Shown here: in pieces, positions 4,735-20,797 of the stretch | Numbering within the stretch: position 1 is the first letter of the stretch | Layout of the letters: every line of letters starts with the position of its first letter | Source: a virus | Direction: 5' to 3' (one strand) | Virus record (IMG/VR): IMGVR_UViG_3300009545_000062 | Span: 1 to 22,562 of that record | Length of the DNA stretch: 22,562 bases | Notes under the pieces: model-generated | Told to the model about the DNA's origin: nothing | The model's input: the letters and a program-made list of their open reading frames with translations, nothing else | The model's database searches: none | Program-made: the position numbers and the translations under genes

Positions 4735-5198
4735 TGGCCGGGCTCACCTCGGCCATACCCGACGCCATCACCGCCCTCATTGGCCACCTGGCCATGATTG
4801 CCGCCACCTACACCGACCCGCAGCTCCAGGTGATTGATGGCGACCTCGGTACCAACGTGCTGCCCGCCTTTGTGCAAATCGGCAACGCCACCGGATGGGT
4901 GCAAGAGGCGGTAGACCTCGGCAACTTCCGGCGCGATGAGCGTTTCGACCTGGAGGGCATCATCCAGTGGTTTGACGGCGGGGCCGGTGCCGAGGTGGCC
5001 TCACAGGTGCGGGCCGACGCCTTCGCCATCTTGGAGGCGGTGGTTTTGGCCATCACCGCCGATCCGACTCTTGGCGGCTCGGTGATCTTCGCTCAATGCA
5101 CCGGGGGCGGGGCCATGGAGCAAGGCACCACCGCCAACGGTGGATGGTCGGTGATCGTGCCGTTCCAAGTGCATTGTCAAGCCCAATTGCAACGATAG
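4734..5198 (+). CDS. Probable tail terminator / tail completion protein
   Basis: The 154-residue protein begins at ATG 4734, sharing the A of the previous TGA. The layout, an N-terminal helix (AIPDAITALIGHLAMIAATYT), a beta segment, FDLEGIIQWFDGGAG, a helix with VRADAFAILEAVVLAI and a terminal strand that includes GGWSVIVPFQVHCQAQL, is that of the small proteins that cap the siphovirus tail tube and join it to the connector. No enzyme motif is present. A head-tail stopper is the main alternative, because no separate stopper gene is obvious between the adaptor and the tail tube gene. Confidence 0.6.
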   Translation: MAGLTSAIPDAITALIGHLAMIAATYTDPQLQVIDGDLGTNVLPAFVQIGNATGWVQEAVDLGNFRRDERFDLEGIIQWFDGGAGAEVASQVRADAFAILEAVVLAITADPTLGGSVIFAQCTGGGAMEQGTTANGGWSVIVPFQVHCQAQLQR

Positions 5199-5209
5199 GG
5201 AGGCCGTCA

Positions 5210-5428
5210 ATGGCTCAAGTCACGAATACGACATACGGGCCGGTGGACGTGCCCCTCTACGGCCTTCGGTTCAAGGGTGGCGAAACGTTGGAGGTACCCG
5301 ACGATATCGCCCGCGAGCTGGGCGGCCCGCTGGCCGTGGAGTGGCCAGCGCCCGAGCCCTCAGCCGAGGCCGTCACGGCCCCGGCCGCAGTACCCACCGC
5401 ACCATCAACCGGAGGTAACGCATCATGA
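5210..5428 (+). CDS. Small hypothetical protein before the tail tube gene
   Basis: The 72-residue product starts at ATG 5210 behind GGGAGG and overlaps the tail tube gene by ATGA. The first 45 residues form a small beta-like unit (VDVPLYGLRFKGGETLEVPDD), resembling short phage proteins that share a 'v.l.G..f..Ge..eVpD..A..L' pattern; the rest is a disordered Pro/Ala tail. The function is unknown. Tight coupling to the tail tube gene suggests a tail role. Confidence 0.7.
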   Translation: MAQVTNTTYGPVDVPLYGLRFKGGETLEVPDDIARELGGPLAVEWPAPEPSAEAVTAPAAVPTAPSTGGNAS

Positions 5429-6432
5429 CAGGCACCGTAGTGGGCTCCGGCGTTGGTGGCTCGGTTGGCGTAGCCGCCGAAACCGCCTTCGGTACGTGGG
5501 TCACGTCCGCCAAATGGCTCGAATTCGAGTCTGAATCCATCAAGTGGAATCCGAGCCGTACCACCGGCAAGGGCATCCGAAACGGCGGCCTTGTGCCCCG
5601 ACGCAGCGCCCGGTTGACCACCACCGCCACCGTGGCCGGGTCGTTGGTAACGCCCGTCTATGGCAAGGGTATGGGCCTCTTCCTGGCCAACCTCATGGGT
5701 TCCATGGCCATGGCCCCGGTGGTGCAAGGCGCCACCGTCGCGTATTTGCAGACTCACGCCCTGGCCCGCCAGGATGGCCAATCGTTGAGCCTGCAAATCG
5801 GGCGGCCCACCATGGATGGCGTGCTCCATCCGTACAACTACAAGGGCTTGAAGATCATCAAGGGCCAGTTTGAGGCCAAGGTTAACGAGGCTCTCCGGGC
5901 CACCTTTGATTTTGACGGCAAAGATTATGACGAGGCGGGCGCCTACGGTGCGCCCGTCTACCAAACGGCCAACCCGTATTTCGCCTGGGAGCAAGGCGTG
6001 TTTTCCATGGGCACCTTCGGGGCCGAGGTGCCGGTTTCCGGAGTACGGGGCTGGACGCTGACCATCGACCGGCCGAGCAAAACCGACAACTTCTACCTTG
6101 ACGGCACCGGTCGCAAGGGCGCCCAAGTGCAAAACGATTTCATGAAGATTTCCGGTGCGTTGGAAACGGATTTCCTGTCGAAAACGACCTTTGCCGATCT
6201 GTTCGCGGCCGACACTCCCCAGAGCATGATAGTGACCTTTACCGGCCCTCTCATCGCCGGAGCTTTCAGCCAACAGATAACTTTCCGCCTGCCCTCGGTG
6301 CAATGGGATGATGAGCCGCCCACCATGGGAGGCCCCGACATTATCCAACCAAAGATGACTTTCACCGTCAACGATGATGACACGAACGTCCCGGCCACCA
6401 TCACCTACATGAGCACCGACGTAACCCTCTAG
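5425..6432 (+). CDS. Major tail (tail tube) protein
   Basis: The 335-residue protein is a phage tail tube protein of the long actinophage type. It opens with GSGVGGSVGVAAETAFGTW, the usual start in which the tube protein is described as a vulnerable 'G.a.E.tfGT' followed by a strand (LEFESESIKWNP). It then has a duplicated beta-barrel pattern with ARLTTTATVAGSLVTPVYGKGMG and a second barrel near residue 200 (GWTLTIDRPSKTDNFYL), ending in LPSVQWDDEPPTMGGPDII. The position before the chaperones and the tape measure fits. It stops at TAG 6430-6432, whose G begins the next gene. Confidence 0.85.
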   Translation: MTGTVVGSGVGGSVGVAAETAFGTWVTSAKWLEFESESIKWNPSRTTGKGIRNGGLVPRRSARLTTTATVAGSLVTPVYGKGMGLFLANLMGSMAMAPVVQGATVAYLQTHALARQDGQSLSLQIGRPTMDGVLHPYNYKGLKIIKGQFEAKVNEALRATFDFDGKDYDEAGAYGAPVYQTANPYFAWEQGVFSMGTFGAEVPVSGVRGWTLTIDRPSKTDNFYLDGTGRKGAQVQNDFMKISGALETDFLSKTTFADLFAADTPQSMIVTFTGPLIAGAFSQQITFRLPSVQWDDEPPTMGGPDIIQPKMTFTVNDDDTNVPATITYMSTDVTL

Positions 6433-6869
6433 TGGCCTCACGCTCGGGGCCACCGCCCATCGTCTTTGGCGTGGCGGTAACCGATTTTAAGGCGTTCGCC
6501 AAAGACATAAAGGCGGCTGATAAGAAGCTGGCCACCAACTTGAGGCAACGGCTCAAAAAGGGGGCGGATTTGGTGGCTGACCAAGCCAAGGCCAATGCGG
6601 CGTGGTCGCAACGTATACCGGGCTCGATCAAATCCTCATCCTCGCCCAGCTCGGCCAAAATCATCATCCGGGCGCCCAACGCTGCCCCGTTTGAGAACAT
6701 GGGCAAGGCGGGCAACTTCCGCCACCCGGTTTTCGGCAACCGTCAAGCATGGGTGACCCAAAAGGCCCGGCCCTTTGCTCTGCCCGCCCTGGTGGCCAAG
6801 GCCGATGAGGTGGCCGAGCTTGTCGGCAAGGCCCTGGATGACTTCGCACGAGACGCCGGTTTCCGGTGA
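6432..6869 (+). CDS. HK97 gp10-like neck protein
   Basis: The 145-residue protein starts at GTG 6432, overlapping the tail tube stop by one base. The N-terminal helix (DFKAFAKDIKAADKKLATNLRQRLKKGADLVADQAK), then SQRIPGSIKSS and an IIIRAPNAAPFENMGKAGNFRHPVFGNRQAW segment with a C-terminal helical part, fit the HK97 gp10 / neck family seen in siphoviruses between portal and tail. In most genomes of this type this gene comes before the tail tube gene; here it follows it. Alternative: a tail completion protein. Confidence 0.7.
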   Translation: MASRSGPPPIVFGVAVTDFKAFAKDIKAADKKLATNLRQRLKKGADLVADQAKANAAWSQRIPGSIKSSSSPSSAKIIIRAPNAAPFENMGKAGNFRHPVFGNRQAWVTQKARPFALPALVAKADEVAELVGKALDDFARDAGFR

Positions 6870-6946
6870 TGGACCGGCTCATTGTGTGGCTTTGGGGCGT
6901 GGTGGACCGGCTCGAAAGATATTTGACCGAGGAGAAAACGCCATGA
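6869..6946 (+). CDS. 25-residue micro-protein between neck and chaperone genes
   Basis: ATG 6869 overlaps the neck gene stop by one base (TGATG) and the micro-gene stops inside the ATGA that starts the chaperone gene. It thus fills the gap exactly and couples the two genes. The peptide has a hydrophobic first half (LIVWLWGVV) and a charged second half (DRLERYLTEEKTP), so it could be a short amphipathic or membrane-associated helix. A GAGGAG-like site inside it also serves the chaperone gene. It may be a real product or only a coupling device. Confidence 0.5.
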   Translation: MDRLIVWLWGVVDRLERYLTEEKTP

Positions 6947-7263
6947 TCGTTGAGTGTGAAGGCAAAGAGTACGCCTACGATCCTCGGCTCATTGAAGTGC
7001 GGGTGGCAAAGAAGATCAACGAGTACACCGGCCTTGGTCTGCGCTCGTGGGAAAAGGGCGTGGACGATTGCAACGCCAAATGTCTGGCCGCCCTCCTCTT
7101 CGCCATCAAGGTGCAAGCCGGAGAGCCGTGCCACTCCATCGCCGCCCTCAACTTTTCGGCTCTTGATTTCTACGATGCCATCGTGCAAGCGGCGGCCAAA
7201 GAGCTGGCCGAGAAGATCGAGCCGGAAGAGGTGGCCGAGACGGACCCTATGGTGACCGCCTAG
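6943..7263 (+). CDS. Tail assembly chaperone, short form (G-like)
   Basis: The 106-residue protein precedes the tape measure gene, the fixed place for tail assembly chaperones. It begins with a small beta part (MIVECEGKEYAYDPRLIEVR), then helices with VAKKINEYTGLGLRSWEKGVDDCNAKCLAALLFAIKVQAGE and a C-terminal acidic helix. Such proteins coat the tape measure before tube polymerisation. The start ATG 6943 has GAGGAG nine bases upstream (6929-6934). A second, longer product is expected from a -1 frameshift before its stop (see the next entry). Confidence 0.75.
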   Translation: MIVECEGKEYAYDPRLIEVRVAKKINEYTGLGLRSWEKGVDDCNAKCLAALLFAIKVQAGEPCHSIAALNFSALDFYDAIVQAAAKELAEKIEPEEVAETDPMVTA

Positions 7264-7448
7264 CGCGGGACGATCCGCGGTGGGATGAGCCCATTTACCC
7301 GCTACGGCAACGGTACCTCTTCGCCCTGGCCAACCTTTGCGGGCTCGGCCCGGCCGAGGTGGACGCTTTGAGCGTGGTGGATTTTTGGAGCCTCATTATC
7401 CCGTGCGAGCAGCACATAAGAGCCATAGCCGCAGCAAACGCACAATGA
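6943..7448 (+). CDS. Tail assembly chaperone, long form (G-T fusion by -1 frameshift)
   Basis: In the -1 frame an open stretch runs from 7167 to TGA 7446-7448. It encodes a conserved-looking, start-less segment with WDEPIYPLRQRYLFALANL and a C-terminal EQHIRAIAAAN. There is no ATG, GTG or TTG in that frame until well inside the segment, so independent initiation is unlikely and a programmed -1 frameshift is expected, as in the lambda G/GT system. The best slip point is C-CCT-ATG at 7245-7251, where P-site tRNA-Pro can re-pair with CCC; the A-site fit is poor and no canonical X-XXY-YYZ heptamer exists in the overlap. A GC hairpin (7264-7268 with 7275-7279) lies 12 bases downstream. The exact site is inferred. 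Confidence 0.7.
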
Positions 7449-7461
7449 CGGAGGCAAGGCC

Positions 7462-9141
7462 ATGGCTGGAGGCAATACCCGTACCCTAACCGTCAACGTG
7501 GTGGGCAACGCCACCGGGGCCAAGAAAGCCATGACCGAGACGGGGGCCACCGCCGAGGCCACCGGCTCGAAAATGTCGAGTGCTTTCAAGGGTGCTTTTG
7601 CCGCTCTGGGCTCGGCCTCGGGCGGGGCCTTCGCACCTGTACAGGAGATGTTTGACAAGCTCGGCCCGGCCATTGATTCCTTTAAGGAAAAGGGCCGGAC
7701 GGTTGGCTCTGTCATGGTCGGCGCCGGGGTGGGTATCGCCGGGGCCGGGGCCGCTCTCACCGCCTTTGGTGACAAGGACAAGGCGGCCACCCAGCAGCTC
7801 GGGGCGGCCATCTCGGCCACCGGGGGCGACATTGACGATTTCTCGGAGCGCATCGAGAAGGCCGTCAAGACGAACGAAAAGTACGGCACCACGGCTAGCG
7901 GCACCACCGGGGCTATACGCATCTTGACCACATCCACCGGCGACGCGGGCAAGGGCCTGGACTTGATGGGGCTGGCCGCCAACCTGGCAGCGGCCAAGCA
8001 CATAAGCCTTGAGGCGGCGGCCACAATGGTGGCCAAGGTCCACGGTGGGGCGACAAAGACGCTCAAGGAGTTTGGCGTCACCCTCTCTGCCAATAAGGAC
8101 AAGACGGCGGCGGCCACCGAAAACCTGGACGCTTTGAGTAAGAAGCTTTCCGGGCAGGCCTCGGCCGGGGCGAACACCTTTACCGGCCATATGAAGGCGC
8201 TCAAGACTGAGGTGGAGGATCAAGTAGCCACCATCGGCCAAAAGTACGGCCCGGCCTTGATGGGCGCCGGGGCCGGGATGAGCCTTCTCGGCACGGCCGC
8301 CACCGGGGCCAAGGCGGTTATGGGGATGTTCAAAACCACCGAGGAGCTGGGCGCGGTGGCGACCGACGCCCTGGCCGCATCCGAGGGCCTGGAGGCCACC
8401 GCCACCGCGGGTGAGACGCTGGCCGATACCACGCTGATCCCGGTGGAGACGGCCGCCCTATCGCCGGTGCTGCTCATCATCGCAGCGGTGGCCCTCTTGG
8501 CCGTTGGTATCTATGAGCTGGTCACCCATTGGAAAACGGTATGGACCGCCATACAGGAGGCGGTAAAGGCCGCGGTGGATTTCGTCAAGGGCCTGATTAC
8601 CGGCGTGGTCGGATGGGTCAAAGGCCATTGGCAATTGCTCCTCGCCATCCTGACCGGGCCTATCGGGCTGGCCGTGCTGGCCATCAAAGATCATTTCAAC
8701 CAAATTCTGAGCTTTATCACCGGGCTACCGGGCCGGATCGCCGGTATCGCCTCGGGCATGTGGCACGGCATCACCGACGCTTTCCGCTCGGCCCTGAATA
8801 TGCTCATCGACCTTTGGGACCGGCTCGGGTTCACGCTCCCGGCCATCAATTGGGGGCCAATGCACATTGGCGGCGGCCATATCTCTCTGCCCAAGATTCC
8901 GCACCTGGAGGCCGGGGGCATCGCCCTTAGCCCGATGCTGGCCGAGATTGGCCACGGGGCCAACGGTGAGGCGGTTGTACCTCTGCCGCCCGGTGGCCTC
9001 GGCGGCGGCGGTGGAGCCATCACCGTCAATGTGCCCCTCTACATCGACGGCCGCCAATTCGCCAAGGCCACCGCCCAATTCACCCGCGCCGAGCTACTCC
9101 AAGGCACGGGTAGGAGCACGGGCAGGGTAGGGCTCGGGTGA
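7462..9141 (+). CDS. Tail tape measure protein
   Basis: The 559-residue protein is the largest complete one here and sits directly after the chaperone pair. It has an Ala/Thr/Lys-rich helical N-terminal half, hydrophobic segments near residues 85-105, 334-355 and 390-412, and the usual C-terminal part in which HLEAGGIALSPMLAEIGHG is followed by EAVVPLP, a widespread tape-measure signature. It sets tail length and is thought to enter the cell envelope during DNA delivery. At roughly 1.5 angstrom per residue it would give a short tail of about 80-85 nm. The start ATG 7462 follows a GGAGG site. It overlaps the next gene by GTGA. Confidence 0.93.
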   Translation: MAGGNTRTLTVNVVGNATGAKKAMTETGATAEATGSKMSSAFKGAFAALGSASGGAFAPVQEMFDKLGPAIDSFKEKGRTVGSVMVGAGVGIAGAGAALTAFGDKDKAATQQLGAAISATGGDIDDFSERIEKAVKTNEKYGTTASGTTGAIRILTTSTGDAGKGLDLMGLAANLAAAKHISLEAAATMVAKVHGGATKTLKEFGVTLSANKDKTAAATENLDALSKKLSGQASAGANTFTGHMKALKTEVEDQVATIGQKYGPALMGAGAGMSLLGTAATGAKAVMGMFKTTEELGAVATDALAASEGLEATATAGETLADTTLIPVETAALSPVLLIIAAVALLAVGIYELVTHWKTVWTAIQEAVKAAVDFVKGLITGVVGWVKGHWQLLLAILTGPIGLAVLAIKDHFNQILSFITGLPGRIAGIASGMWHGITDAFRSALNMLIDLWDRLGFTLPAINWGPMHIGGGHISLPKIPHLEAGGIALSPMLAEIGHGANGEAVVPLPPGGLGGGGGAITVNVPLYIDGRQFAKATAQFTRAELLQGTGRSTGRVGLG

Positions 9142-10406
9142 CGGCTATACCCCCGCTGCAATGCTTGGTGGCGTTCAACAATGCGCCGGGTGATGATCCT
9201 GGCCTCATCACCACCGTGGCCTCACCGGGCGTCTTGGGCGCCCACAATGTGTGGACCGATATAAGCCCGTGGGTCACCGGGGCTCAGATCGGCCGGGGCA
9301 CGCAGCATGAGATGGGCGTCTTTGAGGCCGGGACGTGCACCCTTACTTTGGACAATCGGGCGGGCACGTTCAACCCGTGGAATACGGCCTCGCCCTTTTA
9401 CGGCTTGCTTTTGCCCATGAAATTGGTACAGGTGCGGGCCACCACGGGCGGCACCACCTTTTACCGTTTCACCGGCCATACCTCGGCCTGGCCGATCCTC
9501 TGGCCCGATCCGCTCTCCAGCGGGGCCGAGCTGGTGGCCTCCGACGCTTTCCGCCTGTTCAATACCTCCACCCTCTCAACGGTGGGCTTGACCTTGCAAG
9601 CCTCGGGCGCCCGCATCGGCGCGCTGCTCGACCTCATCGGCTGGCCCGCGGGGGCCAGGGTGATAGATACCGGCTCCACCAACATCCAGGCCGACGTACA
9701 AAATCTGACCGAGGCCGCCGCTTTGGGAGTGCTCCAATCGGTGGAGGAGACAGAGGCGGGCGCCCTGTTTATGGACGGTCAAGGCCGGGTGCGTTTCATT
9801 CAGAGGGGCGCCCTCAGCTACTCCACCGGGGCGCCCACGAGCCCGTACGGCGTGGTGCAAGCCGTTCTAGGCGATGAACCACGGGTGGGGGAGATACCTT
9901 TCCAACCCGGCCCCACGCTCGGCCTGGATGAGCTGGACATTTACAACCGGGCCGTAGTCACCCGCCAGGGCGGCACCGAGCAAGTCTATGACGACACCGG
10001 GAGCCAAGCCGCCTACGGGGTACACGTCTGGAAACCGTCCAGCACCGTGCTTTACACCTCCGACGCCGAGGCTCTGAATCGGGCCTTGTACGTGGTCACC
10101 ACCCACGCCCAACCAATCACCCGGCTGGCCGCCATCTCCGTGGACCTCAACGACCTTGTTGAGCCGGGCACGGTGGCCACCATGCTGGGCTTGGATTTGC
10201 TCTACCGGGTGACGGTCAACCGCCACGGCCCTCCGGGCGGCGGTGACGCCTTCCACCAAGACGGCAACGTGGAGCACATCTCCGAAGTCATCTCGGCCAA
10301 CGGGTGGACAATCACCCTAGCCCTGGCCCCGGCTGACACCTCCGGTTACTGGACGTGGGGCACCTCGGAATGGGCCACCCTGCCCGATACGACTAGATGG
10401 GATTAG
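9138..10406 (+). CDS. Minor tail protein (tail tip)
   Basis: The 422-residue protein starts at GTG 9138, overlapping the tape measure stop. Residues 40-80 carry the pattern [20 protein letters not shown] followed by [12 protein letters not shown]. This is a hallmark of actinophage minor tail proteins encoded after the tape measure, where a short G-R-x(6)-F-x-x-G-T-x-x-x-x-L-x-N-x-x-G-x-F-x-P run lies at the start. It then has [10 protein letters not shown] and a long beta-rich C-terminal half. It probably forms part of the baseplate or tail tip (Dit or Tal-like). No peptidase motif is seen. Confidence 0.8.
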
Positions 10407-10410
10407 GCCA

Positions 10411-10785
10411 ATGTCTTTTATCAATCCCGATAGCGTCCATCGCGGCACCACCGGGGCGGTGGCTCCGGCCGCGTGGGGTGACGTGGTAAACGATGACCTC
10501 AACGCCCTGAATACCGCCTTTGTCAATACGGTGCTGACCAATAACGGGGCGCCCGGTGCGGGCGTGGGCGTGGACGGAAATTATTGCATCGACCCTTTCA
10601 CTTGGATGCTCTACGGCCCCAAGGCCGGTGGCGTTTGGCCTGCCGGTGTGCACATTGTCGGCCCGGCCGGAGCTGTCGGCCCGGCTGGTCCGACGGGGCC
10701 AGCGGGGCCTACGGGGGCCGATGGGCCAGCGGGGCCGACCGGCCCGGCCGGAGCGACCGGCCCAACCGGGCCAACGGGGCCGTAG
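10411..10785 (+). CDS. Short tail-fibre-like protein: anchor domain plus collagen repeat
   Basis: The 124-residue protein has an anchor domain of about 80 residues ([20 protein letters not shown], then [13 protein letters not shown] and a strand pair [18 protein letters not shown]) followed by about 13 Gly-X-Y triplets ([13 protein letters not shown] and similar) up to its stop codon. The same anchor with the same order of motifs starts the next gene, 4 bases after this stop, so the pair arose by duplication. Collagen-like repeats form trimeric shafts in phage fibres. With no receptor-binding head, it may act as a spacer or structural fibre, or be a remnant of an ancestral longer gene. Confidence 0.8.
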
Positions 10786-10789
10786 GCCG

Positions 10790-12169
10790 ATGCCCGCCTT
10801 TGTCAATCCCGATAGCGTCAACCGGGCGGCCACCGCCACCGTGCCTCCGGCCTCATGGGCCGATGTCGTCAACGATGACCTAGCCAATCTCCGCACGAGG
10901 CCAACCAACAATATTCGCTACGGCACGGTGCCTCCGCTGCCCGCGGTGGGCATCGACGGTGATTACTACATCGACAGTGTGGCCCAGATGGTCTACGGCC
11001 CCAAGACGGCCAACGTATGGCCCTCTGGGGTGTCCATGGTGGGCGTGGACGCCACCACCGGGGCCGCCGGGGCCACCGGCCCAGCGGGGCCTACAGGGGC
11101 GGCGGGGCCGACAGGAGACACCGGCCCCGATGGGGCCACCGGGCCGATGGGGCCAGCCGGGCCGCTCGGCGCTCTCAGACATTACGTTTACGTGCGCCAG
11201 CCGACAGGTGCCACGGCGGTCCCCGTCTCCGGGGCCACGTTCGGGGCCATGACAAACGGCACGAGCCCGATTACCGATACGCACTTTTACCCGTCGTTCT
11301 TTTATGACGCTCCGCGGGGCCGGTGGGTTTACGTCGGGCAATCCATCTACACCTCACCCGATCTGACCACCTGGACCGCTCGAACCATGCCCGCGGGGTT
11401 TTTTGCCAATGGCAATGGCGTTAACGGCTCATGCGTGTATGACGGGCACGTTTTCATGGCGATTGATGCCGCTAACGATCCATCCACCGACGTGATAACT
11501 TCGCCCGATTGCGTCACCTGGACGAAGTACACCGTGGATGCTGGGCTCCGTAACGTGCTCTCGGTGGCCGGATCGGGCACCCGTTGGCTTTGCGCCGGTT
11601 TGCTCGCTCCTGGTGGGGTAACCGCAGCTCTTCGCACCTCCACCACGGGTGGGGCGGCGTGGTCAACGCTCACGCCTACCTTTACCGGATTCACGACGGC
11701 AACCTGGGAGATACTGCGCCTGTTCTACGGACACGGACTGTTTTTCGCTCTCGTCCAAGGCACCATCGGGGCGACCAACGGCACCCAACTATTCCATTCA
11801 CCCGATGGCATTACTTGGACACCGGCCAGCGTGCCGCCTTTGGTGTTCGGCTCCAACGCCTACACGTTTACGGTGATGGCGTGGAATGGCAGTCTCTTTG
11901 TCGCCGGGTCGATAAACAATTCAGGGCCGAGCAGCGGAGTATGGACCTCATCGGATGGAGATGTCTGGACCTTCCGGGCCTTGAGTACAGCCATGGCCAT
12001 TGTTATCTCGGTCAATTGGGATACGACGCTCGCCCTATGGGTGGTAATCGGATCAAACAGTTTCAGCGGTGGCGGTACGGTGGCCACCTCGCCCGATGGC
12101 ATCACCTGGACTGAGACGACCTTGACCGATGGCGCTGCCGGGCCGGTGATAGGCCTGGCCGTGGCGTGA
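10790..12169 (+). CDS. Tail fibre: anchor, collagen repeat and Asp-box-like propeller
   Basis: The 459-residue protein starts at ATG 10790, matching the anchor domain of the gene before it ([51 protein letters not shown]). Residues 90-127 are a Gly-X-Y repeat. From residue 135 the protein is beta-rich with six regularly spaced SPDGITWT-like motifs near residues 189, 237, 283, 336, 387 and 434, about 49 residues apart. They resemble the Asp-box (sialidase-type) turn but are one residue shorter. A beta-propeller receptor-binding or glycan-binding head is the likely role. A longer frame is open from ATG 10556, but that part lies inside the preceding gene. Confidence 0.82.
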
Positions 12170-15114: not shown

Positions 15115-15489
15115 ATGGCATCTGCCACCCGCCCACGGGGGACTTCGGGCGTGGGCTTTGATGAGATGCTCCGATGCCGCACCCTCGGGCATCAATGGGA
15201 TGATTTCTACCCAACGTCTTTGGCGCCACCTTCTTTCGGGTGGCGCCTTTCTTTGCGTTGCGCCCGGTGCTCCACCGAGCGCCACGACATCATAAGCCAC
15301 GCCCAGGGCGAGGTACTCAGCCGGGAGTACCGCTACGTGGACGGCTACCAACAAGGCCGAGATGAGCGCCTCGACCGGCCCGAGCTACGCAAAGCCCTCT
15401 ATGAGCGCATCCGGGCCAAGCTCCCGCAAGCCGCACTAGCCTCGGATGTAACCGACATATCCACCAAACGGAAGGCAAACACGGCATGA
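15115..15489 (+). CDS. Zinc-ribbon-like actinophage protein
   Basis: The 124-residue protein starts at ATG 15115 behind AAAGGAG. It has the conserved layout MLRCRTLGHQWDD, then GWRLSLRCARCSTERHD and GEVLSREYRYVDGYQQ. The C-x(n)-H and C-x2-C residues look like a treble-clef or zinc-ribbon site. Proteins with this arrangement are common in actinophage genomes but have no proven function; a small DNA-associated or regulatory role is the usual guess. It overlaps the next gene by ATGA. Confidence 0.75.
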   Translation: MASATRPRGTSGVGFDEMLRCRTLGHQWDDFYPTSLAPPSFGWRLSLRCARCSTERHDIISHAQGEVLSREYRYVDGYQQGRDERLDRPELRKALYERIRAKLPQAALASDVTDISTKRKANTA

Positions 15490-16328
15490 CCACCACCACC
15501 AAGCCAACGGTGAGGATTGAACAGGTGACGCCCGAGATGGCCGACAAGTACCTCGGCACGATGGTGCACAACCGCCAGCTACGCCAAAGCCGGGTGGTCC
15601 AATGGCTTTCCATCATTGAGCGGGGACAATGGGAGTTGACCAATGACGCCATCTCCTTCGATGAAAACGGCCACCTCCTCAACGGCCAGCACCGGCTAGC
15701 GGCCATCGCCACGAGCGGCCGAACCCTGCCCCTAGTGGTGCTCCGCAACCTGCCGCCACGGGTACAAGACGTGATGGACTCCGGCCTCACCCGCAAGCTG
15801 GCCGACGCCCTCAAACTGCGGGAGCAAAACGACACTCACGTCAAGGCCTCGGCCCTGCGCTGGATACACCGGCTTGAGTACATAGAGGCCCATGATGGCG
15901 AACTCGTCACCTACGCCAACAAGTCGGCCGATATCCCGACCATTGCTGAGCTGCTTACAGTTTTCGACGCCCAAGCCGAGGCCATGTCCGAGGTGAGCAC
16001 CCTGGCACGACGAGCCAAACACGAGCTGAGCGTACCCGAGGGGGGCGCTATGGCGATAATGATCCGCCAACGGGCGATTGACCCAGACGAGCAAGAGGCG
16101 TTTTGGGAGACCACGCTTAGCGGGGCCGGGCTGGAGGTCGGGGACGCCCGCCTCGCCCTCCGCAACTATCTGCTGGCGCCGATACGGGGCGGGCACCGGC
16201 GCCGGGACTATCAAACCGTGGCCATCGCCATCAAAGCCTGGAACCATTGGCGTGATGGCAATAGCATCATGATACTTCGGTGGGCGTGGGGCGGATTGCA
16301 CTCCGAGCAATTCCCTATCCCCTATTGA
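15486..16328 (+). CDS. ParB-like N-terminal (GQHR) domain protein
   Basis: The 280-residue protein has a ParB/sulfiredoxin-like front half. VTPEMADKYLGTMVHNRQLR resembles the family opening, and ISFDENGHLLNGQHRLAAI holds N66-G-Q-H-R70, the signature loop that in this superfamily binds a nucleotide. LPLVVLRNLPPRVQDVMDSG follows. The rest is helical with a long all-alpha segment and an Arg-rich end. ParB-like phage proteins have been linked to partition, nuclease, modification or regulatory roles; here no ParA gene is near. It directly follows the zinc-ribbon gene and precedes the run of tiny genes. Confidence 0.7.
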   Translation: MTTTTKPTVRIEQVTPEMADKYLGTMVHNRQLRQSRVVQWLSIIERGQWELTNDAISFDENGHLLNGQHRLAAIATSGRTLPLVVLRNLPPRVQDVMDSGLTRKLADALKLREQNDTHVKASALRWIHRLEYIEAHDGELVTYANKSADIPTIAELLTVFDAQAEAMSEVSTLARRAKHELSVPEGGAMAIMIRQRAIDPDEQEAFWETTLSGAGLEVGDARLALRNYLLAPIRGGHRRRDYQTVAIAIKAWNHWRDGNSIMILRWAWGGLHSEQFPIPY

Positions 16329-16331
16329 GCA

Positions 16332-16442
16332 ATGGTTGAGCATTTCGACCGGGACGGGCGGCTCATCGGCTTGGCCGAATGGGCCGCCCTGGCTCGTCGG
16401 GTTGGCCAGGATGCAGGGGCGGAGGTGAGCAAGGGTGAGTGA
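16332..16442 (+). CDS. 36-residue micro-protein after the ParB-like gene
   Basis: ATG 16332 lies 3 bases after the ParB-like stop, so it can be read by re-initiation. The peptide (MVEHFDRDGRLIGLAEWAAL, then ARRVGQDAGAEVSKGE) is helical in the middle. Its end overlaps the GTG start of the next gene by 8 bases, and a GGAGG site for that gene lies within it. It may be a real small protein or a coupling element. Confidence 0.5.
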   Translation: MVEHFDRDGRLIGLAEWAALARRVGQDAGAEVSKGE

Positions 16443-16659
16443 TACAAGCCCACTGATGGGCGGGATTGTGCAGTGCGAGGAGAAGGTGTGGGAACCACCT
16501 GGGTATACCCACTCCCACCGCTGCCCAAATAAGGCTACTTGGCTTGTCACGACTGCTCATGACACCGAGCAGCGATATCGCTGCGGGGTTCACGTCAAAT
16601 GGTTCGAGCGGCATCGGCCAGCCTTCACGATCACACCACAAACGGGCCGGCCGACGTGA
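16435..16659 (+). CDS. Small Cys/His-rich protein
   Basis: The 74-residue protein starts at GTG 16435, preceded by GGAGG at 16420-16424. Cysteines in IVQCEEKVWEP, HRCPNKATW and RYRCGVHVKWFE give a C...H.C...C..H arrangement that may bind zinc. It resembles many short actinophage proteins of unknown function. Its last seven residues, PQTGRPT, match a tail shared with three other genes and a minicistron in the right arm. It overlaps the next gene by GTGA. Codon use in this gene and the following three differs from the rest of the window (fewer GGCC, more TCG and GTC). Confidence 0.7.
   Translation: MSDTSPLMGGIVQCEEKVWEPPGYTHSHRCPNKATWLVTTAHDTEQRYRCGVHVKWFERHRPAFTITPQTGRPT
16637..16649 (+). repeat. 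13-bp gene-junction motif, copy 1
   Basis: CACAAACGGGCCG, one base from the consensus CACGAACGGGCCG. It ends six bases before GTG 16656 and encodes part of PQTGRPT at the end of the previous gene. Confidence 0.7.
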
Positions 16660-16991
16660 GCGCGTGGGCGGTCGCTCTCATCTGGATCGGAAGCATCCTC
16701 GTCTATTCGATCACCGCCACCGTTGTTGGTGTCAAAGCATATTGGGTGTTCCGAGCACGGACCGAGGCCAACAGGAGCGCCCGCGAGTTCGAGCGTGGCT
16801 TTGCGCTGGATGAGATCGACCGCGGTTTCGGGTCGTCCATCATCGGGCTGATCTGGCCAGTCGCAGTTTGGTTCGTCGTCGCAATCTGGATGATCTACAG
16901 AGGCGAGGAACGCCACCGGCAACAGGCCGCGATGAACGCCGACAGGGACCGGATGCTGGCGCTCGCTCGCAAGGAGTTGGAGGATCTATGA
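16656..16991 (+). CDS. Small two-TM membrane protein
   Basis: The 111-residue protein starts at GTG 16656, giving a GTGA overlap with the gene before. Residues 4-27 (VALIWIGSILVYSITATVVG) and 61-82 (SIIGLIWPVAVWFVVAIWMI) are hydrophobic, and the C-terminal part is a charged helix (ERHRQQAAMNADRDRMLALA). Function is unknown; small two-TM proteins in phages include holins, superinfection-exclusion factors and membrane anchors. An in-frame GTG at 16599 would extend the protein, but that extra part lies in the previous gene. Confidence 0.65.
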   Translation: MSAWAVALIWIGSILVYSITATVVGVKAYWVFRARTEANRSAREFERGFALDEIDRGFGSSIIGLIWPVAVWFVVAIWMIYRGEERHRQQAAMNADRDRMLALARKELEDL

Positions 16992-17017
16992 CTGCACGAA
17001 CAGGCCGTCAGCCATGA
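16988..17017 (+). other. 9-codon minicistron MTARTGRQP
   Basis: ATG 16988 starts in the ATGA of the preceding gene, and the stop overlaps the ATGA of the next gene. It encodes only MTARTGRQP, the same tail that other nearby genes carry at their C-terminal ends. I see it as a coupling cistron or as the remnant of a gene end; translation is not shown. Confidence 0.35.
16995..17007 (+). repeat. 13-bp gene-junction motif, copy 2
   Basis: CACGAACAGGCCG, one base from consensus, six bases before ATG 17014. It encodes ARTGRQP in the minicistron. Confidence 0.7.
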
Positions 17018-17208
17018 CGATCGAGCATCACACCTTCGCCTATGACCGCAACTTCTTCGACGACAAGCTGATCGCCGCCTGCTCCTGCGGGTGGGAGAGT
17101 CGTCGCACCAGTGACACCATCGAAGACGCGCAGGAGCGGTGGGACGAACACCGCGAAGCAGTGTTCATCGAGGCGACGGAAACGGCACAGTCGGGCCGTC
17201 AGTTATGA
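17014..17208 (+). CDS. Small zinc-ribbon-like protein
   Basis: The 64-residue protein has CSCGWESRRTS preceded by LIAA, and then AQERWDEHREAVFIE. A C-x-C-G-W core followed by a helix with W-x2-H is common in small actinobacterial and phage proteins and may bind a metal ion. It ends in AQSGRQL, a degenerate copy of the shared tail. It starts at ATG 17014, six bases after a 13-bp repeat (16995-17007), and overlaps the next gene by ATGA. Function unknown. Confidence 0.7.
   Translation: MTIEHHTFAYDRNFFDDKLIAACSCGWESRRTSDTIEDAQERWDEHREAVFIEATETAQSGRQL
17186..17198 (+). repeat. 13-bp gene-junction motif, copy 3 (degenerate)
   Basis: CACAGTCGGGCCG, three bases from consensus, six bases before ATG 17205. 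It encodes AQSGRQ at the end of the zinc-ribbon gene. Confidence 0.5.
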
Positions 17209-17342
17209 GGATCGGCTACGCCATCGTCGTCCCGACCGCCGAGTGGTGCGGGCACGGCCTCGACCTCACCGAGCAGGAGAAGGCCGCATGGGTCGCCCAG
17301 TTCGAGCCTGCTCCAAGGCCACGAACGGGCCGGAGCCAATGA
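17205..17342 (+). CDS. 45-residue hypothetical protein with RTGRSQ tail
   Basis: ATG 17205 overlaps the preceding stop by ATGA. The peptide is compact (MRIGYAIVVPTAEWCGHGLD, then LTEQEKAAWVAQFEPAP) and ends in RPRTGRSQ. The start codon lies six bases after a copy of the 13-bp motif. No family is recognised. It ends in ATGA with the next gene. Confidence 0.6.
   Translation: MRIGYAIVVPTAEWCGHGLDLTEQEKAAWVAQFEPAPRPRTGRSQ
17320..17332 (+). repeat. 13-bp gene-junction motif, copy 4
   Basis: CACGAACGGGCCG, exact, six bases before ATG 17339. It encodes RTGRSQ at the end of the 45-residue gene. Confidence 0.75.
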
Positions 17343-17506
17343 TCACCCTTTGCCGCGTATGCAAACGCATGGTGACCGAGCACCTGGCCCGCGTGGATGC
17401 CGAGGCGTTGCCGTGGCCGTTGGTGGAGGCCGATATCGACGGCTGGATCGGGCTTTACTGCCCCGGCCCGGAATGGGCCGAGGTGAAAAGGAGGGCGGCC
17501 GAATGA
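17339..17506 (+). CDS. 55-residue Cys-rich hypothetical protein
   Basis: The protein starts at ATG 17339 (ATGA overlap), six bases after the perfect 13-bp motif at 17320-17332. It has a CRVCKRM pair near the N-terminus and a later YCPGPEW, suggesting a small zinc-binding unit. Base use returns to that of the main genome here. Function unknown; it is coupled by ATGA to the next gene. Confidence 0.65.
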   Translation: MITLCRVCKRMVTEHLARVDAEALPWPLVEADIDGWIGLYCPGPEWAEVKRRAAE

Positions 17507-17655
17507 CCAAGACGCCGAATCCTGGTAGCGCCGAGGCGGTGGCGGCCGGGTGCCTTTGCGCCATCATGGATAACAACCGGGGCACGGCCCCTCCACGGCC
17601 GCCCGATGGGTGGTGGATCAATGACAATTGCCCAATGCACGCTCCGACGCCATGA
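17503..17655 (+). CDS. 50-residue phage protein of the NPGS...CxC...CPxH type
   Basis: MTKTPNPGSAEAVAAGCLCA, then IMDNNRG and WWINDNCPMHAP match a small conserved family seen in many phages, in which NPGS is followed by A-x-x-x-G-C-x-C, D-N, and W...CP-x-H. The cysteines and histidine probably bind a metal. Function is unknown. It starts at ATG 17503 (ATGA) and overlaps the next gene. Confidence 0.75.
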   Translation: MTKTPNPGSAEAVAAGCLCAIMDNNRGTAPPRPPDGWWINDNCPMHAPTP

Positions 17656-18041
17656 GACGGCTGAAAGGCAACGGTCTTTTCGCGGCCACCATCATCCTGG
17701 CCTCGGGGGCGGTGGCCACGCTCATGGTGACCGTGCCCGGCTCCATTATCTTTGTGCTTTGTTTCCTGATAGCGGCCATGGCCGTGGTCAACGCCCAAAC
17801 GAAGCGGTGGGCTTATGTCCGGGGCTGGATGGACCGGAGTAATTCCAGTTTTCAAAGCGTGGCCGCGGCTCGTGCTCGGGGCATGAGCATTACCGAGTGG
17901 CTTATGTCGGAGGTGGAGCGAGACGGGCTTTTCTACGCCGATCATTGTTTGAGCCGACGCGACAAACGCCGGTTAGTGGCAAGCGCCAAGAAAGGAGCGC
18001 CGGATGCCTCCAGCGACCACGCCGGGCCGCCGCTCGGGTGA
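17652..18041 (+). CDS. Small membrane protein with helical hairpin
   Basis: The 129-residue protein starts at ATG 17652 (ATGA). Residues 9-49 are two adjoining hydrophobic segments (LFAATIILASGAVATLMVTV and IIFVLCFLIAAMAVV), then a charged C-terminal region with YVRGWMDRSN and EWLMSEVERDG. It lacks a recognised family. The end overlaps the next gene by 38 bases. Confidence 0.65.
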   Translation: MRRLKGNGLFAATIILASGAVATLMVTVPGSIIFVLCFLIAAMAVVNAQTKRWAYVRGWMDRSNSSFQSVAAARARGMSITEWLMSEVERDGLFYADHCLSRRDKRRLVASAKKGAPDASSDHAGPPLG

Positions 18042-18267
18042 CCACCCGGCCCGCACCACCTTGTCCGGCCTGGACCGGGCCGAGGTAAAAGAGCTAGCCG
18101 AGGCCGTCCACTACCGCCACGAGGCCCTCAAACGCACAGGGGCAGCCATGGGGGCCGGGCACGCCGGTGAGATGGTCACGGCCAAGCTGGCCGTGCTCCA
18201 CCACCTGTCGATCATCCTAGCCGACGCCAAACAAGACTTGGAGTGCGAAACGTGGGCGGGGCCATGA
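18004..18267 (+). CDS. 87-residue helical hypothetical protein
   Basis: ATG 18004 has AAAGGAG at 17992-17998, inside the previous gene, so the overlap is real. The protein has an N-terminal Pro/Arg/Thr part and then a long helix (LDRAEVKELAEAVHYRHEAL, then MVTAKLAVLHHLSIILADAK). No family is recognised. A hairpin terminator overlaps its stop codon. Confidence 0.65.
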   Translation: MPPATTPGRRSGDHPARTTLSGLDRAEVKELAEAVHYRHEALKRTGAAMGAGHAGEMVTAKLAVLHHLSIILADAKQDLECETWAGP

Positions 18268-18292
18268 GGGCCTTCATTTCCTCCCACGTTTT
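18248..18292 (+). terminator. Hairpin across the stop of the 87-residue gene
   Basis: AAACGTGGG (18248-18256) and CCCACGTTT (18283-18291) are perfect 9-bp arms with a 26-base loop that contains a further GGCC...GGCC pair, and the right arm merges into a TTTT run (18289-18292). A transcription terminator is the best reading. Confidence 0.55.
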
Positions 18293-18353
18293 GTGACCGC
18301 TCGGCCCGATACGCCAGAGCGACAAAGCGGCATACCAAGAGGAGCGTTTGTCT

Positions 18354-18572
18354 ATGAGCTATGAGCTATGGGCATGGCTTGTGCAAGAGAGCGACAGCAC
18401 CGAGGGAGTGATAACGGCCGGAGGGCTCATCAATGGCACGTTTACCAATCTGCAAAGCCGCCAGCGGGCATTGGCTGAGCGCATGCGGCCGTTGGCCGAG
18501 GCCCACGCTGAGGCATCCGGTAGGCCGGTGCGCCTTGCCCACCTGATCGAGCAGAGCGAGCCGGGACCGTGA
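18354..18572 (+). CDS. 72-residue hypothetical protein
   Basis: ATG 18354 has AAGAGGAG at 18337-18344, ten bases upstream; an in-frame TTG at 18348 would be too close. The protein (MSYELWAWLVQESDSTEGVI, then a helix RQRALAERMRPLAEAHAEAS) ends in a GTGA overlap with the next gene. No family recognised. Confidence 0.6.
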   Translation: MSYELWAWLVQESDSTEGVITAGGLINGTFTNLQSRQRALAERMRPLAEAHAEASGRPVRLAHLIEQSEPGP

Positions 18573-18808
18573 GCCCTTCGGGAACGGTCACCTTGATTAC
18601 CGGCGTGGCCCGGCCCACCTACGGCAAACGGGCCAAGGTCCACATTGCCGGGACCGAGCCCGGCCGTGCCCGGTGCGGGCGGTACCTCGGCTCCGGGCCG
18701 AGACCGGGCATCACCGCCGATACGTGGCAGGGGACCATGGCCGAGGTGACCTGCCAGCAATGTTTCACCATGACCACGCCGAGGCGAAGGCCGACCACGG
18801 CGAGATGA
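18569..18808 (+). CDS. 79-residue Cys-x2-Cys small protein
   Basis: The protein starts at GTG 18569 (GTGA). It has VHIAGTEPGRARCGRYLG and VTCQQCFTMT, a single-Cys strand followed by C-x2-C, like a three-Cys zinc ribbon found in many actinophage proteins. Function unknown. It is the last gene before the first of the three repeated promoters. Confidence 0.65.
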   Translation: MSPSGTVTLITGVARPTYGKRAKVHIAGTEPGRARCGRYLGSGPRPGITADTWQGTMAEVTCQQCFTMTTPRRRPTTAR

Positions 18809-18906
18809 TCGGGGGCGGCTCGGGCCTAGCCCATTGCCGTGGGTGATGGGGGCCTGATGGTGCCGCATCTTTCTGACGGCCAAGGCTCTCCGGCTGAGCC
18901 GCCCTC

Positions 18907-18973
18907 GTTACCCATTCGGGTAACCCTTGGCAAGATAGTTGCCAGGGTGGCGCCCGAGCCTTACTGTGGAGTC
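18907..18973 (+). promoter_or_regulatory. Repeated promoter-operator, copy 1
   Basis: GTTACCC/GGGTAAC arms (18907-18913, 18918-18924) are followed by an inverted repeat TTGGCAA-gatag-TTGCCA (18927-18944). The right arm is the -35 (TTGCCA), 17 bases before TACTGT (18962-18967), which is 6 bases before ATG 18974. A transcription start at or next to the ATG would make a leaderless or nearly leaderless mRNA; a GGAG between -10 and ATG is too close to act as a normal ribosome site. The operator arms overlap the -35, so repression by a phage regulator is likely. Confidence 0.65.
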
Positions 18974-19243
18974 ATGACCACCAACCAAGCCAATTCATCC
19001 ACCACCAACCCATGGAAGGCCCTCGCCCAAGAGCGTGAGGCCCGTTACGGGGCCGGGGGCACCGAGAGCGCCTACGAGCGTGCCGCCATTGAGGGCGAAT
19101 ACGCCGGGACCGATGCCTACGCCACGCCTTGCCCGTGCGGCTCGGTCATGGAGTACCGGGCCACGGTGGGCGCCTTGATCTGCCCGGATTGCCGCCAAAT
19201 GGCTCATACCAACGGGGTGCTTATCGGCGGCCCTCGCAAGTAG
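18974..19243 (+). CDS. 89-residue zinc-ribbon protein behind promoter copy 1
   Basis: The protein begins MTTNQANSSTT, shared with the next gene, and has CPCGSVMEYRATVGALICPD, a C-x-C...C-x2-C zinc ribbon (the last Cys is just after D). The rest is charged and helical. Function unknown. Start ATG 18974 is fixed by the promoter spacing; earlier in-frame codons lie in the promoter. Confidence 0.65.
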   Translation: MTTNQANSSTTNPWKALAQEREARYGAGGTESAYERAAIEGEYAGTDAYATPCPCGSVMEYRATVGALICPDCRQMAHTNGVLIGGPRK

Positions 19244-19260
19244 CCCGCCAGCTCCACCAA

Positions 19261-19290
19261 AGGCCCCGGCTCCGGCGCCGGGGCCTCTTT
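19261..19290 (+). terminator. Repeated terminator, copy 2
   Basis: AGGCCCCGGC (19261-19270) and GCCGGGGCCT (19277-19286) form a 10-bp stem with a TCCGGC loop and a CTTT end. A 17-base conserved lead (CCCGCCAGCTCCACC core) lies between the stop codon of the previous gene and the stem and recurs in the other copies. Confidence 0.8.
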
Positions 19291-19292
19291 GC

Positions 19293-19359
19293 GTTACCTC
19301 TTCGGGTAACCCATGGCAAGATGGTTGCCAAGGTGGAGCCCGAGCCTTACTGTGGAGCT
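19293..19359 (+). promoter_or_regulatory. Repeated promoter-operator, copy 2
   Basis: GTTACC/GGTAAC arms, then TGGCAA-gatgg-TTGCCA (19314-19330). The right arm TTGCCA (19325-19330) is the -35, 17 bases before TACTGT (19348-19353), with ATG 19360 six bases later. It sits directly after terminator copy 2, so terminator and promoter form a unit. Confidence 0.7.
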
Positions 19360-19686
19360 ATGACCACCAACCAAGCCAATTCATCCACCATTACCGCCCT
19401 CCGCACGTGGAAGGGCTCGAAGGCCGTAATCACCATCTACCTGGACGGGGCCGAGCTGGCCAGCCTTGGCGGGGCTCGGGCCGCTCGGGCCGAGGCCGCC
19501 ATCGTGGCCGATTGGTCGAATTGGTATCCAAACAATCGGTGGAGCGTGGAAATCCGGGGCGACCTGAAAGCGGCCGAGATGGAGGCCTACCGCAAGGCCA
19601 CCGCCACCACCAAGGGCCGGGGCCGGGCCGAGCGCCCGATCCGCAATCCAGCCATGGCCGTGGCCGTGCCCGTCACCGAGGGCTAA
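19360..19686 (+). CDS. 108-residue hypothetical protein behind promoter copy 2
   Basis: The protein starts MTTNQANSST (31 bases identical to the start of the gene at 18974) and then differs: a beta-like unit WKGSKAVITIYLDGAELASL, a helix RAARAEAAIVADWSNW and NNRWSVEIRGDLKAAEMEAY. No family is recognised. The shared start shows that the repeated promoter extends into coding sequence. It ends before terminator copy 3. Confidence 0.6.
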   Translation: MTTNQANSSTITALRTWKGSKAVITIYLDGAELASLGGARAARAEAAIVADWSNWYPNNRWSVEIRGDLKAAEMEAYRKATATTKGRGRAERPIRNPAMAVAVPVTEG

Positions 19687-19704
19687 GCCCGCCAGCTCCA
19701 CCAA

Positions 19705-19734
19705 AGGCCCCGGCTCCGGCGCCGGGGCCTCTTT
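19705..19734 (+). terminator. Repeated terminator, copy 3
   Basis: AGGCCCCGGC (19705-19714) and GCCGGGGCCT (19721-19730) around a TCCGGC loop, followed by CTTT. It is identical to copy 2, including the lead between the stop codon and the stem. Confidence 0.8.
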
Positions 19735-19736
19735 GC

Positions 19737-19803
19737 GTTACCTCTTCGGGTAACCCTTGGCAAGATGGTTGCCAACCGGGAGCCCGAGCCTTACTGTGGA
19801 GCT
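19737..19803 (+). promoter_or_regulatory. Repeated promoter-operator, copy 3
   Basis: GTTACC/GGTAAC arms, then a perfect inverted repeat TTGGCAA-gatgg-TTGCCAA (19757-19775). TTGCCA (19769-19774) is 17 bases before TACTGT (19792-19797), six bases before ATG 19804. It differs from copy 2 by only a few bases just after the -35. Confidence 0.7.
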
Positions 19804-19968
19804 ATGACCACCAACCGCAGCGCCGAGGATATCCGCAACAATATTTTGGCCATCGAGTGTGCCGCCTTCGGCATGGGCGTGCCCATCAACGCCGGGCAAG
19901 CCCTCCGCATTGCCGCTTTGCGGGCCGAGCTGGCCGCCGAGCTTGACCCGGAAGGCCGAGACGCTTGA
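19804..19968 (+). CDS. 54-residue hypothetical protein behind promoter copy 3
   Basis: The protein starts MTTNRSAEDIRNNILAIECA and is helical with RIAALRAELAAELDPEGRD at its end. It shares only MTTN with the previous two genes. No family recognised. It ends 23 bases before a possible 17-codon minicistron. Confidence 0.6.
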   Translation: MTTNRSAEDIRNNILAIECAAFGMGVPINAGQALRIAALRAELAAELDPEGRDA

Positions 19969-19991
19969 TAGCGCCCCTCCTGGCCCCGTCT

Positions 19992-20045
19992 ATGAAATCG
20001 GCCAGCTACCGGGCCGAGGCTCAAGCCCTTCGGGCCGCACGATGA
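19992..20045 (+). other. Possible 17-codon minicistron before the HTH gene
   Basis: ATG 19992 opens MKSASYRAEAQALRAAR and stops in an ATGA overlap with the next gene. No ribosome site is seen. It may help couple translation or be chance. Confidence 0.3.
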
Positions 20046-20221
20046 CCACCACCGCCGAGCTGGCCCGCTGGGCCACCAAGGCCCGTGAGGCCACGCTCCG
20101 GCGTGACCGCCTCATCGTGGCCATGCGGGCCGAGGGGGCCACCCATCGGGCCATTGCCGAGGCGGCCGGGCTCAGCCATACGGCCGTGCAAAACGTACTG
20201 GCCAAGGCGGGGCGGCCATGA
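20042..20221 (+). CDS. Small helix-turn-helix protein
   Basis: The 59-residue protein has a clear HTH: THRAIAEAAGLSHTAVQNVL near residues 34-53, where the A-x(3)-G-L-S-x(3)-V spacing is typical of sigma-70 region 4 or Tnp/Cro-type recognition helices. The N-terminal part is a helix (LARWATKAREATLRRDRLIV). A DNA-binding role, for example on the nearby inverted repeats, is a reasonable guess but not shown. It overlaps the following gene by ATGA. Confidence 0.7.
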   Translation: MTTTAELARWATKAREATLRRDRLIVAMRAEGATHRAIAEAAGLSHTAVQNVLAKAGRP

Positions 20222-20445
20222 CCGAGCGCCAGCCAACCTCGGGCGGGAGTGTGCATGGCCGTGCGCTCGATTTGGCCGAGAGGCTTGACCTGATGGCCGA
20301 TGAGGTCGGAGGGTGGGCGACGTGCTCAACAAGACTGCGCCAGGCGGCTTCCTCGCTGCGCTGGCAGGTCAGGTGGGAGGAACGCCACCCGATGACGGCG
20401 TACTACTCCGACGACGCCATAGCTGCACGAACGGGCCGATCATGA
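20218..20445 (+). CDS. 75-residue hypothetical protein with ARTGRS tail
   Basis: The protein starts MTERQPTSGG and has two helices (LAERLDLMADEVGGW and LRQAASSLRWQVRWEE). It ends in ARTGRS, encoded by a perfect 13-bp motif (20426-20438). The next gene starts with the same MTERQP and the same 17 bases, so this gene sits between direct repeats. Its base use differs from the neighbours, which suggests insertion. Confidence 0.65.
   Translation: MTERQPTSGGSVHGRALDLAERLDLMADEVGGWATCSTRLRQAASSLRWQVRWEERHPMTAYYSDDAIAARTGRS
20426..20438 (+). repeat. 13-bp gene-junction motif, copy 5
   Basis: CACGAACGGGCCG, exact, three bases before ATG 20442, 3 kb from the other copies. It encodes ARTGRS at the end of the gene at 20218. 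Confidence 0.75.
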
Positions 20446-20558
20446 CCGAGCGCCAGCCGCGGGAGTGGCCGGTGCCGTGCTCGTGGTGTCGGGAGCCCAC
20501 CTGGGAATCCTCGGCCCTCTGCCCGCGCTGCGCCGAGGCCAAGGCGGCTCGGTCATGA
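20442..20558 (+). CDS. 38-residue zinc-ribbon protein
   Basis: ATG 20442 is in an ATGA overlap. The peptide has CSWCREPTWESSALCPRC, two C-x2-C pairs about a dozen residues apart, a minimal zinc ribbon. It starts three bases after the 13-bp motif. Function unknown; it overlaps the next gene by ATGA. Confidence 0.65.
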   Translation: MTERQPREWPVPCSWCREPTWESSALCPRCAEAKAARS

Positions 20559-20749
20559 GCCGGGACTCATGGGGCGACCGAGCCGCCTACGTGGAGTGCT
20601 CCGAATGCGGCCACCCGCTGGAGCGCCACGGCCTCGGCGGTTGCGATGGCGAGGAGTGCCCTTGTCGGGTGCGCTGGACCGTGCGAGAGATTCAGGAGGC
20701 CCGCCGAGCCGAGGGCCTCCCGATCAAGTACAAGGCGTGGAACTACTAG
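20555..20749 (+). CDS. 64-residue Cys-rich actinophage protein
   Basis: The protein has CSECGHPLERHG, then GCDGEECPCRVRW, the C-x2-C-G-H...H...C...C-x-C order common in small phage zinc-binding proteins. It ends at 20749, before terminator copy 4. Function unknown. Confidence 0.7.
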   Translation: MSRDSWGDRAAYVECSECGHPLERHGLGGCDGEECPCRVRWTVREIQEARRAEGLPIKYKAWNY

Positions 20750-20765
20750 CCCGCCAGCTCCACCC

Positions 20766-20797
20766 GAGGCCCCATATTGAGAGGGTGGGGCCTCTTT
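20766..20797 (+). terminator. Repeated terminator, diverged copy 4
   Basis: GAGGCCCCA (20766-20774) and TGGGGCCTC (20786-20794) form a 9-bp stem with an 11-base loop, followed by TTT. It shares the CCCGCCAGCTCCACC lead with copies 2 and 3 but has a different loop and no promoter unit after it. Confidence 0.75.

Follow-up and report, generated by a model that had tools for sequence, protein, structure and literature searches.

A 13-bp sequence shared by five small-gene junctions of an uncultured phage as a candidate boundary of gene cassettes

The virus record IMGVR_UViG_3300009545_000062, analyzed here over its full length of 22,562 bp (hereafter the window), is a genome fragment of an uncultured tailed phage in which a 13-bp sequence, CACGAACGGGCCG (shared core length 13-14 bp), recurs at five junctions of small genes. 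With a probability of roughly 0.5, small gene cassettes entered the phage genome at a duplicated boundary sequence between genes, of which this 13-mer is the conserved core. The five copies (J1 to J5) and the short open reading frame (ORF) that carries one of them are the following:

J1, 16637..16659, plus strand: CACAAACGGGCCG (1 mismatch), 6 nt, and GTGA; next start GTG at 16656; tail PQTGRPT, at the end of gene 16435-16659.
J2, 16995..17017, plus strand: CACGAACAGGCCG (1 mismatch), 6 nt, and ATGA; next start ATG at 17014; tail ARTGRQP.
J3, 17186..17208, plus strand: CACAGTCGGGCCG (3 mismatches), 6 nt, and ATGA; next start at 17205; tail AQSGRQL.
J4, 17320..17342, plus strand: the exact 13-mer, 6 nt, and ATGA; next start at 17339; tail PRTGRSQ.
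J5, 20426..20445, plus strand: the exact 13-mer, 3 nt, and ATGA; next start at 20442; tail ARTGRS.
Mini-ORF MTARTGRQP, 16988..17017, plus strand: nine codons, predicted, in the -1 frame relative to gene 16656-16991 and with little beyond the motif.

These sites and their common strand, a placement 3-6 bases before the next start codon, and the tails on otherwise unrelated peptides had been proposed by a sequence-only reading of the same DNA, and all were confirmed, the distances being 6, 6, 6, 6, and 3 nt. Each copy is located at an RTGA overlap (ATGA or GTGA) in which a TGA stop overlaps the following start, and all five are read in a common frame, [A/P][R/Q][T/S]GR-x(-x)-stop. Alignment of the junctions on their start codons revealed similarity limited to about positions -20 to -7 plus the RTGA. 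The spacers and next-start bases of J2 and J3, which flank gene X2 (17014-17208), are alike (GGCCGTCAG..ATGA.GATCG), as is expected of a duplicated junction. The further claim that the motif always ends the preceding reading frame held for four full genes and failed at 16995: gene 16656-16991 stops before this copy, which is placed in the 22-nt gap between the stop at 16991 and the start at 17014 and belongs to the mini-ORF, whose ends overlap the preceding stop (ATGA) and the following start (ATGA). A looser likeness to the tails was seen at two further small-gene ends, AKAGRP and AKAARS before ATGA (window 20221 and 20558), where the codons differ; these ends are possibly decayed motif copies or chance similarities.

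The copies share features of DNA rather than of peptide sequence. In this record GCA makes up 4% of the alanine, CCA 15% of the proline, and CGA 10% of the arginine codons, and yet all five copies open the core with an A-ending codon (GCA or CCA), for which the codon use of the record gives a probability of 1.7e-6 once the amino acids are taken as given. Because these rare codons are common to all copies, the five junctions derive from one DNA sequence or are constrained at the DNA level, and not five separate inventions of a peptide; the shared similarity thus reflects common DNA descent or selection on DNA. A comparison of synonymous and nonsynonymous change had been recommended by the sequence-only reading. 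It showed that the differences within the core, which are few in number, mostly alter the residue (P/A, Q/R, S/T) while the rare codons are kept.

Since the motif had been picked post hoc, its recurrence was assessed by a motif-blind test, in which the maximum number of starts with a common 13-mer not more than 24 nt upstream and at a similar distance was compared with 1000 random codon-phase-matched in-frame sets, both for all genes and for the small-gene region alone. Four of the 31 starts share a 13-mer at one mismatch or less, and five at two or less; none of the 1000 random sets did as well in either case. When 528 strands from other viral loci (2.7 Mb in total) were scanned automatically in a similar manner, a single case with three or more junctions emerged, and this was an extended Shine-Dalgarno sequence (see below). 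Matches to the motif with up to three mismatches are admittedly frequent in the window (39 versus 19.7 expected), which is the one observation favoring a chance likeness in a GC-rich genome, singled out after the fact. Given this frequency, J3 with its three mismatches counts only by its place, frame, and spacer length. The copies with no or one mismatch, in contrast, number four in the whole record, and all four are at junctions. The motif-blind sets, the rare-codon sharing, and the lack of any comparable case without a Shine-Dalgarno sequence among the other viral strands already contradict the chance explanation, which is extremely improbable.

The genes between and beside the copies, the region of deviant composition, and a second, longer repeat are listed below:

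ORF ending in J1, 16435..16659, plus strand: 74 aa, Cys/His-containing, without a family match.
X1, 16656..16991, plus strand: 111 aa, probable membrane protein (hydrophobic stretches, by inspection), between J1 and J2.
X2, 17014..17208, plus strand: 64 aa with an AACSCGWES body, between J2 and J3.
X3, 17205..17342, plus strand: orphan ORF of 45 aa, from J3 to J4.
X4, 20218..20445, plus strand: orphan ORF of 75 aa with J5 at its end.
Most deviant composition, 16551..17342, no strand: from 687-bp segments starting at about 16501-16701.
18-bp repeat, left copy, 20217..20234, plus strand: CATGACCGAGCGCCAGCC, exact, at the start of gene 20218.
18-bp repeat, right copy, 20441..20458, plus strand: CATGACCGAGCGCCAGCC, exact, at the start of gene 20442, directly after the core of J5.

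J1 to J4 follow each other and enclose three orphan genes (16656-17342), so that X1, X2, and X3 each lie between two copies of the 13-mer, and 20218-20445 lies between the two copies of the 18-bp start repeat; none of 300 codon shuffles produced an 18-mer repeat. The bodies of X1 to X3 are not significantly related in sequence, and their family matches are weak. X2 matches phrog_5419 with an E-value of 0.0012 over residues 19-49, where the match stops at the profile end and leaves residues 50-64, including the tail, outside; its match in IMG/VR (L389) is likewise restricted to the stretch around CSCGWES. No phage homologs were found for 16435, 16656, 17014, and 20218 (at E 0.1 for 16656 and 17014), and a search of plasmids gave no match to the block. 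An unsupervised scan identified the segments starting at 16501-16701 as the most deviant of the record in dinucleotide as well as tetranucleotide usage; the segment at 20276 was among the top twelve by dinucleotides. A Markov model of the block, trained after masking of the motif, placed the other two genes that end in the motif, 16435 and 20218, first among the 15 small ORFs at order 2; at order 1, 16435 came fifth and 20218 first.

Under the favored explanation, small cassettes would recombine into the non-structural operon at the junction sequences, and each new gene would thereby come to be flanked by two copies. The order at 16.6-17.3 kb is A-J-X1-J-X2-J-X3-J-B, and a related event would have taken place at 20.2-20.4 kb. 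Since the upstream frame ends just beyond the core, every cassette would incidentally acquire the same C-terminal tail, and translational coupling of the operon would be preserved by the RTGA overlap. We infer that recombination events took place, that their direction was gain and not loss, that the genes came from a donor, and that the tail itself serves no function. This explanation is preferred because one process with precedents covers the array, the unrelated bodies, the composition, the rare codons, the J2 copy, and the repeat at 20.2/20.4 kb. Among the possibilities raised by the sequence-only reading it is the best supported, by the rare codons, the run of four copies, the composition, the 18-bp repeat, and the precedents.

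These precedents are known from a few mycobacteriophages. LRRHood 43-46 are located between 29-bp repeats. Corndog 14 of the cluster O mycobacteriophages has a 17-bp junction repeat on either side, of which four sister phages possess a single copy (PMC4351075); like the genes described here it is a small gene bounded by a short direct repeat, and the arrangement was attributed to recombination at that repeat, but it represents one gene with one repeat pair and known single-copy sites, whereas the window has five copies, four of them successive, and no known empty site. The cluster I genes Island3 67 and 68 have 60 bp and their last 18 residues in common, which was ascribed to a process resembling boundary-sequence recombination (PMC3029335). 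In Island3 as in the window, adjacent small proteins end in the same residues through shared DNA at the 3' end; the sharing extends over 60 bp, 18 residues, and two genes in Island3, and over 13-14 bp, 5-6 residues, and five frames in the window.

Several observations weigh against a cassette boundary. A shared core of 13-14 bp is short for general recombination. In four copies, spacers of largely unrelated sequence all measure exactly 6 nt, and a constant distance combined with a conserved core and a free spacer is the pattern of a cis-element. The codon usage of the block is ordinary overall, 24% of null stretches being equally unusual, the composition of 20218-20445 is not exceptional by itself, and several composition statistics were examined. 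No sibling genome spanning the site and no empty site were identified; IMG/VR has a single near-identical contig (L062), which covers window positions 4132-11571 alone. With no sister genome to decide, the choice of the mechanism is one of inference, at even odds for the cassette boundary as against clearly lower ones for its nearest competitor, the cis-element considered below.

The survey of other genomes suggested by the sequence-only reading did not reveal a junction-associated motif elsewhere. The exact motif occurs near or before ATGA at 57 IMG/VR loci, which by a rough estimate is about the number expected by chance, and a second close match at a junction was seen at none of these 57 loci; the idea of a widespread phage element was rejected on these grounds. 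The degenerate pattern matched at least 119 stretches, with no similar array among the matches listed. In bacterial genomes, scattered single matches and no junction repeat were present among the matches listed; at one locus (L365) the motif occurs twice without mismatch, each time within the same 24 bases, which looks like a duplicated stretch. Relatives recognized through the protein encoded at 15486-16328 (L072-L081, 37-45% identity) share the 15115 gene and are devoid of the small genes and the motif, and eight whole virus records of up to 114 kb that encode distant relatives of the same protein also lack the motif. The motif thus appears to be particular to this lineage.

The competing explanation with most in its favor is a cis-acting start-associated element, in which the 13-mer, placed 6 nt before the overlap, would aid re-initiation without a Shine-Dalgarno sequence and the tail would be the element read through by the ribosome. 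The constant distances, the single orientation, the conserved core next to mostly unrelated spacers, and the exclusive location at RTGA overlaps are consistent with such a role, and the mini-ORF at 16988-17017 would maintain the chain of stops and starts. The start-associated sequences (SAS) of cluster K mycobacteriophages resemble the motif in being 13 bp long, non-palindromic, in one orientation, 3-7 nt before starts, and in the non-structural part of the genome (PMC3203893). In cluster K and Microbacterium EF phages, the SAS has an AGGA(G) core and occurs mostly in gaps of more than 50 bp, and 11-19 copies per genome are conserved between the subclusters of cluster K (PMC3203893, PMC7302621). 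The motif differs in having no Shine-Dalgarno core, five copies, and no counterpart in the distant relatives examined, as well as in its location, with all copies at RTGA overlaps and four within the end of the upstream gene. The likeness to SAS noted by the sequence-only reading thus extends to length, polarity, and distance, but not to the AGGAG core or to the large intergenic gaps. Of its suggested role in translation initiation, the fixed distance stands; beside the missing Shine-Dalgarno core, the five junctions lack a common fold, and the longest complement to the 16S rRNA around the motif, 6-7 nt with the E. coli sequence that was used, equals the background. Moreover, the motif precedes just 5 of the roughly 17 small-gene starts, neighboring RTGA overlaps do without it, J3 departs from it at 3 of 13 positions despite a spacer similar to that of J2, and it is missing from the eight whole virus records with relatives of the neighboring protein. 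Taken together, a cis-element is possible, though rather doubtful. A combination of both ideas, a Shine-Dalgarno-independent 13-bp re-initiation element that travels with the cassettes and writes the common tail, so that the boundary is itself the translation element, is unlikely. The extended Shine-Dalgarno case mentioned above belongs to the 122-kb record IMGVR_UViG_3300036832_000855 (L082, L390-L392), which contains 22 exact copies of CCGACCGAGGAG and 12 more with one mismatch (1 in the reversed control). Of 25 sites viewed in context, 23 have a possible start codon 0-8 nt away, mostly at 4-6 nt; judged by these features, the sequence is a predicted SAS-like extended Shine-Dalgarno sequence of an uncultured virus.

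A C-terminal tail acting at the protein level (in sorting, interaction, or stability), selected in several small proteins and spread as a coding segment, would account for the single frame in all five copies, the invariant glycine and last core arginine, and the one or two free residues before the stop. However, the copy at 16995 is attached to no full protein, and as a free-standing 9-codon ORF it fits better with a DNA scar; the residues change while the rare synonymous codons stay, the reverse of what selection on the peptide alone would produce, and a short literature search retrieved no known tail signal of this kind. The pattern of changes thus lends no support to a protein-level role, which is quite improbable. 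Even less probable is a putative regulator-binding site of the stoperator type, a 13-bp asymmetric sequence at which a phage repressor would halt transcription. The 13-bp length, the asymmetry, the one orientation relative to transcription, the position inside an operon, and the integrase of the record would agree with it, and the stoperators of cluster A phages (L5, Bxb1) are similar in the first three respects, but they occur in 24-34 copies per genome, mostly between genes, and are bound by the repressor (PMC3029335). Unlike these genome-wide sites, the four copies with one mismatch or less in 22.6 kb are coding, clustered, and tied to starts. The confinement of the copies to five junctions, in coding ends and at a fixed distance and frame, and their absence from the repeated promoter-like units at 18.9-19.8 kb (see below) weaken the proposal. 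An integron-type cassette (attC) was also considered and rejected, as the five junctions have no common fold.

The record encodes a head protease, an HK97-type capsid protein, a tape measure protein, a minor tail protein, and a serine integrase, the last of which indicates that the phage is probably temperate. About 17 small ORFs on the same strand fill 16.4-20.75 kb, from a ParB-like/phrog_5931 gene to the integrase, and many of them are joined by ATGA or GTGA overlaps. Actinophages make up many of the nearest relatives of phrog_5931 among phage records. A scan for known RNA families and tRNAs gave no hits. Further repeats were observed in the window. A unit at 18915-18986, 19242-19372, and 19686-19816 precedes three otherwise unrelated genes (18974, 19360, and 19804). 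It combines GGGTAACCC and TTGGCAAgatggTTGCCAA dyads with GCCCGAGCCTTACTGTGGAG and the first codons (ATGACCACCAACC), and its last two copies also have a terminator-like hairpin. Two of its copies are 97% identical, genes 18974 and 19360 both start with MTTNQANSST, and the unit looks like a duplicated putative promoter/operator/start cassette. The 17 bp AGCCCGCCAGCTCCACC that open the terminator repeats at 19242 and 19686 return at 20748 (window 20748-20790), past the last small gene, where they again precede a GGCCCC...GGGGCCTC stretch. In the tail region, an adjacent gene pair at 10417-11164 opens alike (FINPDSV and FVNPDSV; 77% identity over 83 nt), and collagen-like GPAGPTGP repeats then follow in both genes.

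Actinophage operons are already known to contain repeated junction sequences, some of them recombination boundaries and others start-associated elements. For the variant described here, with five copies, four of them in tandem, in coding ends at overlaps and without a Shine-Dalgarno core, we did not find a match in the literature consulted. Phages constantly acquire small orphan genes, and the junctions seldom retain a trace of the route. As a cassette boundary, the four-copy array would be an iterated form of the single cases in mycobacteriophages and would show how pre-coupled small genes accumulate; if the boundary were at the same time a translation element, a gene newly inserted into the operon would be translated immediately. 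For annotation, a common C-terminal tail on unrelated phage proteins should be viewed with caution, since such a tail may represent a scar in the DNA rather than a functional signal.

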